Made by a program: the position numbers and the translations under genes
Shown here: positions 54,150 through 60,410 of the stretch, in pieces
Numbering within the stretch: the stretch's first letter is position 1
Layout of the letters: the number at the start of each line of letters is the position of its first letter
The notes under the pieces: generated by a model
Told to the model about the DNA's origin: nothing
The model's input: the letters and a program-made list of their open reading frames with translations, nothing else
Databases searched by the model: none
Assembly (NCBI GenBank): GCA_023954855.1
Contig: JAGSGY010000002.1
Location: 124,001 to 188,000 of the forward strand
Reading direction: 5' to 3'
Source of the DNA: Pseudomonadota bacterium
Lineage (GTDB): Bacteria; Myxococcota_A; UBA796; GCA-2862545
Length of the DNA stretch: 64,000 bases

Positions 54150-55004
54150 TCAGCTTGGCTTGTGTCCTGCGACAACTCGGACCACGCCGCCGAGATCATT
54201 CGCGGTGGTCACATCGACCAAACCGAGCTCCAACATGAGGCGCTTGATGTGCGGGGCCTGGCGGATGCCGACCTCGACCAGCACGCCCTTTCGGGCTCGT
54301 TCGACCGCCGTTGGAAGCAGCTGCTGGTACACCGCGAGTCCATCGCGCCCACCGTCCAGCGCACCCTTCGGCTCCCACTGAGACACCTCGGGCTCACACT
54401 CCGTCAGGTCTTTGCTCGGAATGTAGGGGGGATTGCTCACCACCCAATCAATGACGCGGTTGGGCGGAATGGGATCGAGCAAGTTGCCCTTGAGTACGGC
54501 GACGCGTTTCTCGAGGCCGAGGGCGGCGACGTTGGCTCGGGTACACGCGAGGGGGGCATCGGCAATGTCGATGGAGAACACCCGGGCGTTCTCGCGAGCG
54601 GTAGCCACCGCCAACCCGATAGCGCCCGAACCGCAGCCGACATCTGCGATGTAGACGGGATCGGTCTCGCCCTCTGGGATTCGTGCCAGGACTTCGTCGA
54701 CCAAGGTCTCGGTGTCCGGCCGCGGTACGAGCACGCCGGGTGTCACCTGCAGTTCAAGGGCGTGAAAACCAACGGTTCCGAGGATCCAAGCGAGGGGCTC
54801 GCGTTTTCCTCGTCGCGCGACCAGGGGTCTGAGAAGCGCCAGCTCCTCATCGGACATCGGTCGATCGTGCTGCAGGTAGATCTGCAGACGCTGGATCTCG
54901 AGGGCGTGGGCGAGCAGCTGCTCGGCCTCATACCTGGGGCTGGGAATGCCCCGGCTACGCAAGTAGCCCTCGGTCCGCGTCAGCACGTCGACGAGTGGGA
55001 TCAC
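54150..55004 (-). CDS. prmC: Peptide chain release factor N5-glutamine methyltransferase
   Basis: A 284-residue SAM-dependent methyltransferase that methylates the GGQ glutamine of release factors. N-terminal helical bundle ([28 protein letters not shown]), the SAM-binding [18 protein letters not shown] and the catalytic NPPYIP motif in [14 protein letters not shown] are all present. ATGA overlap with prfA, its substrate protein, is the classic arrangement. Length normal. Confidence 0.96.
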
Positions 55005-56080
55005 GCGTGTTCCTCGAGGAGGGTCGCCTGGTGGGCAGCCATCAAGGCGTCGGTGACCTCTTGGAGGTCTCCACTCATGATGTTGTCGAGCTTGTAGAGC
55101 GTGAGGCCGATGCGGTGATCGGTCAGGCGGCTCTGCGGGAAGTTGTAGGTGCGAATACGCTCGGAACGGTCACCGCTTCCGACCTGAGCTTTTCGGGCCG
55201 CAGCTTCTTCTGCGTGCTTCTCGGCTTCCATGCGCTCGAGCAGGCGAGCCTTCATGACGCGCATCGCCTTGTCCTTGTTCTTCAGCTGGCTCTTCTCGTC
55301 CTGGCACTGCACGATCAGGCCGGTCGGGATGTGAAGAATGCGGACTGCAGAGTCGGTGGTGTTGACCGACTGCCCACCAGGGCCACCTGCGCGCATCGTG
55401 TCGATGCGAAGGTCCTTCTGGTCGATCTTGAGTTCGACTTCGTCGGGCTCCGGCAGCACGGCAACTGTCGCCGCAGAGGTGTGGATGCGGCCTTGGGACT
55501 CGGTCGCGGGCACGCGTTGAACGCGGTGAACGCCGGACTCGAAGCGAAGTCGAGAGTACGCAGAGTCCCCGGAGACCGATGCGATGATCTCCTTGAAGCC
55601 GCCGGAGCCGCCGCCGACCGTGACGCCGGAAGACGACATGATCTCGAAGCGGAGGCCCTGTCGCTCGCCGAAGCGCTGGTACATGCGGAACAGGTCGCCG
55701 GCGAAGAGCGCGGCCTCGTCTCCACCCGTACCCGCGCGGATCTCAAGCAAGATGGGACGGCCTTCGTAGGGATCCTTCGGCAGGAGCAGCAGCCGCAGCT
55801 TCTCACGAAGCTTCGGAAGCTCATCCTCAAGTTCATTGATTTCGGCTTTCGCGAGCTCTCGCATCTCGGCGTCATCGGCCTCAGCGAGGAGTTCCTTGGA
55901 CTCGGCGATCCCGGCCTCGGTCTCTTGGTACTCCCGCCAGCAGTCGATAATGCCGGTCAGATGGGAGTGCTCACGACTGAGGTCCCGCATCTTCTTCGCG
56001 TTCGAGAGGACGGCGGGGTCCATGAGGGCGCGGTCGAGTTCTTCGAGGCGCTGAGCGAGTGATTCGAGACGATCAAACAT
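55001..56080 (-). CDS. prfA: Peptide chain release factor 1
   Basis: A 359-residue release factor reading UAA and UAG. The GGQ catalytic loop is [18 protein letters not shown], and the codon-recognition motif is PAT in [10 protein letters not shown], as in RF1. The ATG at 56078-56080 directly follows a T-run and hairpin, with no Shine-Dalgarno sequence. A GTG ten codons upstream (56110) lies inside the hairpin, so the true start is either leaderless or unusual. ATGA overlap with prmC at the other end. Confidence 0.95.
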
Positions 56081-56119
56081 AAAAAACCCGGGAGTGCGTG
56101 GTTGCGGCACACCCCGGGT
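56081..56119 (-). terminator. Terminator-like hairpin directly before prfA
   Basis: ACCCGGG (56086-56092) and CCCGGGT (56113-56119) are perfect complements, extended by GTGC/GCAC. On the minus strand the stem runs into TTTTTT and then immediately the prfA ATG. It should end transcription coming from rpmE2, or act as an attenuator. Confidence 0.75.
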
Positions 56120-56197: not shown

Positions 56198-56482
56198 CTA
56201 CTCTTCAGCTTCGGCGGTCGGGGCCTCGTGGCCCTCTTCGCGCTGGAAGCCGTACTTCTGGTAGAACTTCTCGACGCGACCGGCGGAGTCGAGGATCTTC
56301 TGAGTGCCCGTGTAGAACGGATGCGACTCGGAGCTGATGTCGATGACGATGAGTGGGTACTCTTCGCCCTCGAACGTCGTGGTCTTGTCCGTCTGGGCGC
56401 AGGACCCGGTGAGGAACTCGAAGTCGCAGGAGACGTCGCGGAAGACGACCTGACGGTAATCGGGGTGGATATCGGCCTTCAT
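56198..56482 (-). CDS. rpmE2: Ribosomal protein L31, type B
   Basis: A 94-residue ribosomal protein. [28 protein letters not shown] and [26 protein letters not shown] are the type B (zinc-independent) pattern; the type A Cys-x-x-Cys zinc pair is absent. The C-terminus is extended with an acidic tail ([13 protein letters not shown]). An AGGAG site precedes the ATG. It sits in the usual rho-rpmE-prfA-prmC order. Type B paralogues are often controlled by zinc availability, and twin palindromes lie upstream. Confidence 0.95.
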
Positions 56483-56599: not shown

Positions 56600-57820
56600 C
56601 TATTGGCCCGTTGCAGCCACGCTGTCAAGGGTGCGGGTGAGCGCGACGACGGCAGCGCCGTCCTCCACGGAGTCACCGGTAAGGGAAGCACGCCAGCGAG
56701 CACGCTCGGCAGTGCCTTCTGGGCCGACCAGTCTCTCGCCGCGGCGAGTGCCGGAGCGGTGTACGTCGAGAGGGGGGCGAATGCCGCGATCGGCGAGGTC
56801 GCGGCTGAGCGTCGCTTCCCAGTTCACGACGTCGCGCAAGTCCTCGAGTTGTGCCTGGTCGACACGGTTGCCCGGATCGCCGCTCACGACGCCAATCACG
56901 GTGAGGGATCCGCCTTCCTCGAGCGCGCGTGCGGCACCCATGTACCGGCGAATGCGATGCAGGGATGAGGCATCGACCCCTCCGCCCATTTCGCGTCCCG
57001 AGCCCGGAAGCTCGGCCATGCAGGCGCGCAGGAGGCGGGTCAGGCTGTCGACGATCAGAACCACGTCGTCGCCGCGCTCGACCATGCGCCGGGCCCGCTC
57101 GAACACGATGTCGGCCACCTGAATGTGGTGCCCCGGTTGCTCATCGAACGGGGTCGCGATGACCTCGGCCTTGGTCGACCGACGCCACTCTTGAATCTCT
57201 TCGGGCCGCTCATCGATGAGCAACACGGTGACCTCGAGATCCTCGTCGGTCGTGAGGACGTCGGCGATGCGCCGCAGAAGGTCCACTCTGCCCGTGCGGG
57301 AGGGTGCGACGAGGATCCCGCGCTGGCCGAGTCCCATCGGGGCCGCCATGTCGAGGGGCCGCAGGTGCGAGTCCTTGTCGAGTGGAATGCGGTCGTCGGG
57401 GTAGATCGCCGTGAGAGCGTCGAAGCTCGGCGGTTCGATTCCCGGGGGATCGCCGTTGACGCTCTCGACCCGCAGCAGGGCCGTGTAGCGTTCGCCCTCC
57501 TTGGGTGGACGCACATGGCCAAGTACGGTGTCGCCCGTCTTCAGCTTGAAGCGGCGGATCTGGCTCTGGGAGACGTAGATGTCTCCGCTACCCGGCAGGT
57601 AGTTGTCTTCCGGGGAACGAAGGAAGCCGAAGCCTTCGCCGTGAACCTCGAGGACCCCGCGTCCGAGCTGAACGTTGGCAGCCTTGGCACGCGTCTGGGC
57701 GATCGCGAAGATCAGATCGCTGCGACGCATGGCTTCGGGATCAGCGATGCCGGCCTGGCGGGCCTCAGCGATGAGCTGGGCAGCGTCGGCATCCTGGAGG
57801 TTCTCGAGCTCGAGCGACAT
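56600..57820 (-). CDS. rho: Transcription termination factor Rho homologue with altered P-loop
   Basis: A 406-residue protein following Rho end to end: an N-terminal helical domain, a cold-shock RNA-binding domain (GRGVLEVHGEGFGFLRSPEDNYLPG ... RPPKEGERY) and the RecA-like motor. The catalytic Glu region LLIDERPEEIQEW, Walker B-type VLIVDSLTRLLRA, the GGGVDASSLHR Q-loop and the SGTRRGERLV arginine finger are retained. Walker A, however, is APSRTGRV at 172-179, with Arg for the essential Lys and Val for Thr. The R-loop Lys-Gly-Thr-Gly segment reads RDVVNW. The motor may be unable to hydrolyse ATP. It lies in rho's normal place beside rpmE2 and prfA. Either another Rho exists or this lineage's Rho works differently. 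Confidence 0.9.
   Translation of the reverse strand: MSLELENLQDADAAQLIAEARQAGIADPEAMRRSDLIFAIAQTRAKAANVQLGRGVLEVHGEGFGFLRSPEDNYLPGSGDIYVSQSQIRRFKLKTGDTVLGHVRPPKEGERYTALLRVESVNGDPPGIEPPSFDALTAIYPDDRIPLDKDSHLRPLDMAAPMGLGQRGILVAPSRTGRVDLLRRIADVLTTDEDLEVTVLLIDERPEEIQEWRRSTKAEVIATPFDEQPGHHIQVADIVFERARRMVERGDDVVLIVDSLTRLLRACMAELPGSGREMGGGVDASSLHRIRRYMGAARALEEGGSLTVIGVVSGDPGNRVDQAQLEDLRDVVNWEATLSRDLADRGIRPPLDVHRSGTRRGERLVGPEGTAERARWRASLTGDSVEDGAAVVALTRTLDSVAATGQ

Positions 57821-57973: not shown

Positions 57974-60410
<2,437 letters not shown>

Follow-up and report, generated by a model that had tools for sequence, protein, structure and literature searches.

The only Rho of an uncultured deltaproteobacterium is probably an RNA-binding derivative without a motor

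The rho gene in the window, by which we mean the whole 64,000-nucleotide stretch of DNA analysed here, encodes the only Rho of its genome (G000), and comparison of its sequence indicates that the product is quite probably a motorless RNA-binding derivative of Rho by descent. A non-motor RNA-binding derivative had been named as one option in a preliminary description of this DNA, and it was the option that fitted best with a sole copy, an eroded motor, an intact OB fold and purifying selection.

The gene showed the domain set, the sequence similarity and the locus (rho-rpmE-prfA-prmC) by which the Rho family is recognised. The Pfam domains Rho_N, Rho_RNA_bind and ATP-synt_ab were detected, in an architecture of an N-terminal helix bundle followed by the OB-fold RNA-binding domain and the ATPase domain. 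The profile searches gave an E value of 5e-120 with NF006886, exceeding its cut-off, and a score of 394 bits with TIGR00767, under the cut-off of 509 bits. Residues 4-368 matched solved Rho structures (E 5e-99), and an AlphaFold monomer computed from five input sequences had a low pLDDT of 54. The gene order ligA-rho-rpmE-prfA-prmC (Table 1) verified the neighbours of what had been recognised earlier as the positional rho. NusG was also present with an ordinary score in a profile-level look.

Table 1. Positions of the rho gene, its neighbours and its sequence motifs in the window
Feature	Position	Strand	Basis
rho (406 aa plus stop), only copy in the genome, altered in the motor	56600..57820	(-)	ORF and profile searches
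ligA, adjoining rho on the upstream side	57974..60133	(-)	
rpmE (L31), adjoining rho on the downstream side	56198..56482	(-)	
prfA (RF1)	55001..56110	(-)	
prmC	54150..55004	(-)	
Intact OB fold with the primary RNA-binding site, codons 48-126 (GFGFLRS, DIYVS, PPKEGERY)	57443..57679	(-)	Alignment
Altered Walker A APSRTGRV, codons 172-179	57284..57307	(-)	Alignment to E. coli Rho; identical in G001/L095
rho segment between Walker A and Walker B	57197..57217	(-)	Alignment
Walker B VLIVDSLTRLL, codons 254-264, Asp retained	57029..57061	(-)	Alignment
Q-loop region LPGSGREMGGGVDAS, codons 271-285; K283, V284, L285, T286 substituted	56966..57010	(-)	Alignment
True R-loop GDPGNRVDQ, then AQLEDLRDVVNW (its end is the R-loop of the preliminary description), codons 314-334	56819..56881	(-)	Alignment

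Residues were numbered as in E. coli Rho, with a reference sequence that agreed with the PDB chains matched in the structure search. In Rho, Lys184 is the Walker A lysine, E211 the catalytic glutamate, R212 the arginine valve and Lys326 the R-loop lysine (PMC8828861). The alignment paired AGKT of the E. coli Walker A with TGRV of the window Rho, corresponding to K184R and T185V, and the canonical Walker A typical of the class was ASPRTGKT or SPPRTGKT. The preliminary description was thus right that APSRTGRV has lost the essential Lys and Thr; the Thr, T185, is the Mg ligand. R353 was replaced by Gly. The OB fold, Walker B (D265), the catalytic Glu (E211) and the arginine finger (R366) were retained as had been reported, together with the arginine valve R212. 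The Q-loop, reported as kept too, was so only in part, as GGVDA was retained and residues 283-286 were substituted. The stretch RDVVNW, formerly assigned as the R-loop, was found to pair with K336-M341 of the E. coli protein (KGTGNM), another conserved stretch of the motor domain, which follows the R-loop; the true R-loop is DPGNRV, which pairs with DTGSKM (E. coli 322-327) and retains a basic residue at position 326. All seven residues of the OB primary RNA-binding site (F62, F64, R66, D78, Y80, E108 and Y110), the RNA contacts of E. coli Rho, were present.

From what is established for P-loop NTPases, the loss of both Walker A residues makes it very unlikely that the window Rho hydrolyses ATP or translocates, and RNA binding by its OB fold is likely since all the contact residues are retained. 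At the mild end, the protein may still bind nucleotide or hydrolyse it very slowly, because E211, R212, D265 and R366 remain.

The genome G000 was 97% complete in 178 contigs, and both protein and family searches detected no further Rho in it, giving just weak matches of other ATPases. A second, active Rho had been suggested in the preliminary description, along with a search for another rho with a GKT P-loop and a comparison with close relatives. As the 97% complete genome has no other Rho, this suggestion was rejected; in the order, likewise, nothing was found besides the single canonical Rho of the genus g18. A canonical copy could still lie in the unassembled sequence, carrying out termination and leaving the window copy as a paralogue, but this is very improbable, as the canonical Rho of g18 is itself a single Rho at the same locus, and 26 of the 27 good-quality genomes of the order have a Rho, which is the altered form in all besides g18.

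Sequencing error at Walker A was rejected as a cause, because a separately assembled congener, the public MAG M1803 (SBGP01000066, L095; G001), carries the identical APSRTGRV. The data come from MAGs only, and an assembly error or a pseudogene might be considered on this ground; with 88% protein identity between the two Rho proteins over the whole length and a dN/dS of 0.087 between their genes, however, such an explanation is hardly conceivable. As the comparison with relatives shows, the genus is fixed for the Walker A change, which continues through the order with further erosion.

The survey of the order covered 63 genomes, with a Rho match counted at E <= 1e-30, and Rho was present in 58 of them; the assemblies of the relatives were largely fragmented. 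A canonical motor was found in the order in g18 only, represented by two genomes (G024, above the cut-off, and G033, split over two contigs), with APPRAGKT as Walker A. The remaining Rho proteins of the order scored approximately 130-463 bits, compared with approximately 640-730 bits for full-length canonical Rho proteins of the class and phylum, and almost every genome had one Rho under the cut-off. Canonical Rho was the rule in the sister families of the class. When residue retention was read from 47 motor-altered sequences (including G108, from another lineage), the Walker A Lys was retained in 6% and the Thr in 23%, R353 in 2% and K283 in 6%; the retention was 30% for the R-loop consensus sites, 27% for E. 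coli positions 331-350 and 45% for the Q-loop, and approximately 90% for the OB fold. Across the order E211, R212 and D265 were mostly retained and R366 was often lost. The identity to E. coli Rho in the ATPase domain fell from approximately 72% in canonical proteins to approximately 35-45% in altered ones, and that in the OB fold was mostly 40-52 of 71 positions in altered proteins versus 43-58 in canonical relatives.

The P-loops of the order ranged from GRV, GRT and GRS down to no P-loop. GKS or GKT was retained in three genomes of family f2 and GKH in one of f1, in which other motor residues were gone. An unusual but active ATPase, with the Arg of GRV in place of the Walker A Lys and a slow motor, would agree with the recurrence of RTGRV in much of f1 and with the four residues E211, R212, D265 and R366 shared by the window Rho and G001. 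We regard it as quite improbable, since the Mg ligand T185 has become Val, R353 has become Gly and the Q-loop is altered, and since the rho of sister lineages, with its gene context unchanged, encodes no P-loop any more (GRAGVA, STDRL, GADVL).

The altered rho genes were full-length and had no internal stops. Between G000 and G001, the dN/dS of the ATPase domain was 0.074 and that of the OB fold 0.04-0.05; among ten pairs of close relatives within the order, the ranges were 0.06-0.23 and 0.016-0.095, respectively, all of these figures being approximate because dS was high in several pairs. In canonical pairs, both domains evolved at like rates, with dN/dS mostly below 0.09. The constraint on the altered ATPase domain is thus relaxed relative to that of a working Rho, but far from gone. 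The low dN/dS of this domain indicates that the altered genes are working genes, and since its constraint is relaxed yet far from gone, the domain probably retains some role, probably in keeping the shape of the protein or its partners.

In one genome of the window's family (G002, 97% complete), rho had been lost precisely from the locus, which read ligA, 167 bp, rpmE, prfA and prmC (L109:8807-8974), and two profile searches found no Rho in that genome. The Rho protein is therefore dispensable in at least one lineage. This loss, together with the absence of Rho from many genomes of the phylum and the very long branches of G007, G032 and G037, would agree with a Rho on its way out, whose motor was the first part to decay once termination had become intrinsic and whose remainder is a relic. 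Such a course is unlikely, though less so than the other alternatives, given that the genes in the ten close pairs are full-length and free of stops with both domains under strong purifying selection, that the OB residues are intact, and that the synteny of the locus is conserved across six families. A dN/dS close to 1, as decay would produce, was not observed.

In the phylogenetic analysis, the OB part of g18 Rho grouped with those of motor-altered genera of family f5 (support 100/97), and the ATPase part was canonical. This grouping suggests that the f5 ancestor still had the motor and that its loss inside f5 was independent of the losses in other families. As an alternative to such vertical descent with repeated losses, the ATPase domain of g18 may have been replaced by recombination, and because the rho trees contain long branches, the number of motor losses is not fixed.

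Altered Rho proteins were also detected outside the order. The sole Rho of G108 (family f25, L080) had GRT in Walker A and lacked most of the Q-loop. Four genomes of family f30 (L242-L245; G265, G250, G140 and G256) had one divergent Rho each with an intact OB fold; E211 was replaced by Leu or Val, and GKT or GKS was retained in three, the fourth having no P-loop. That the motor was lost repeatedly in the phylum, in several lineages of the order as well as in f25 and f30, with the RNA-binding protein kept as a motorless regulatory class, is a proposal on which we are evenly balanced. The GKT or GKS motifs in these few relatives of f2 and f30 and the dispensability of rho in G002 were counted against the motorless reading.

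Other arrangements of Rho were seen in the phylum. Among the 285 genomes at least 90% complete, 105 had no Rho match at E <= 1e-30, including members of f14, f15, f19 and f21, and the Rho RNA-binding profile gave no match in the twelve of these Rho-less genomes that were tested. Seven f16 genomes (G077, G082, G086, G090, G098, G105 and G109) had a canonical Rho plus a shorter Rho-like match (profile approximately 127-414), which, unlike the window Rho, comprised the ATPase part only. The canonical-type Rho of L081 (G066) lay in a frame region of 730 codons with three matches that repeat the C-terminal part of the profile (2-338, 332-396 and 327-414), and this pattern suggests an insertion with a duplicated C-terminal segment.

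Termination signals were then compared among genomes with altered, absent and canonical Rho. A first, cruder detector of intrinsic terminators showed no difference. A second detector, which scored a strong hairpin plus U-tract at gene ends against dinucleotide shuffles, found six of eight convergent ends in E. coli as a control. Strong terminator-like ends numbered 21 of 222 in genomes with altered Rho (5.7 in shuffles) and 6 of 150 in two canonical relatives (5.0 in shuffles, no excess); the clearest excess was in the rho-less G002, 13 of 83 (1.5 in shuffles). Of three energy thresholds examined, the excess was clear at the strictest only, and with simple home-made gene calls the comparison is exploratory. 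In the head-to-head comparison with canonical genomes, the difference was significant for G002 (p 0.0045) and non-significant for altered Rho (Fisher p = 0.065). Most gene ends had no recognisable terminator in any of the genomes compared. The enrichment is modest, and the pattern fits a shift away from Rho. Coding-strand purine bias as a sign of lost Rho, an idea taken from PMC13323073, did not separate the groups in matched genes, as the values of 0.503 for altered and 0.513 for canonical Rho had overlapping ranges and canonical g18 gave 0.498. The coding-strand purine content was lowest in G002 (0.471), the sole outlier.

According to the motorless reading, the window Rho would still fold like Rho and grip pyrimidine-rich nascent mRNA with its OB folds, without hydrolysing ATP or pulling RNA through the ring. 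RNA polymerase would not be stripped off by translocation of the altered protein, which would instead be a passive tether on RNA, and perhaps on the polymerase too, serving for example to shield untranslated mRNA or to set pausing. Termination would be taken over by intrinsic terminators and other routes, and that by Rho translocation would be gone.

Rho is one of the core proteins of bacteria, and a form of it without a motor would be unexpected. The window protein shares with canonical Rho (E. coli; TIGR00767) the locus, the domain order, the OB-fold RNA site, Walker B, the catalytic Glu and the arginine valve, and differs in the lost Walker A Lys and Thr, R353 and Q-loop residues; order-wide, the whole translocation apparatus is eroded. 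According to PMC8828861, conservation of the ATPase residues is high among divergent Rho factors. Weak motor output occurs naturally in Mycobacterium tuberculosis Rho, whose R-loop Lys326 is replaced; unlike the window Rho, it has kept its catalytic residues as well as its Walker motifs (PMC8828861) and is an ATP-dependent motor (PMC4499133). The short paralogue Rho2 (NF041509) is likewise divergent, but as a named paralogue it is an additional copy, whereas the window Rho is a sole copy with a retained OB fold and falls far under the NF041509 cut-off. Rho-less bacteria such as cyanobacteria and some Bacilli likewise live without a Rho motor (PMC13289151, PMC13323073), but through absence of the gene, whereas in the window's order, except in G002, it is kept under selection without a motor. 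No description of a natural motorless or inactive Rho was found in the literature searched, with the NAR 2024 survey of Rho diversity (gkae582), the main one on this subject, lying outside that search, and priority is uncertain.

Because the motor parts are lost and the RNA-gripping domain is under strong selection, the single Rho of this order of uncultured deltaproteobacteria probably binds RNA without pulling it. This raises the question of how these bacteria end their transcripts. An only Rho that lacks motor residues and is yet under selection would be a natural split of the RNA-binding role from the motor role, and may serve as an experiment of nature on how far Rho biology, such as recruitment to RNA and to the polymerase, can do without translocation.
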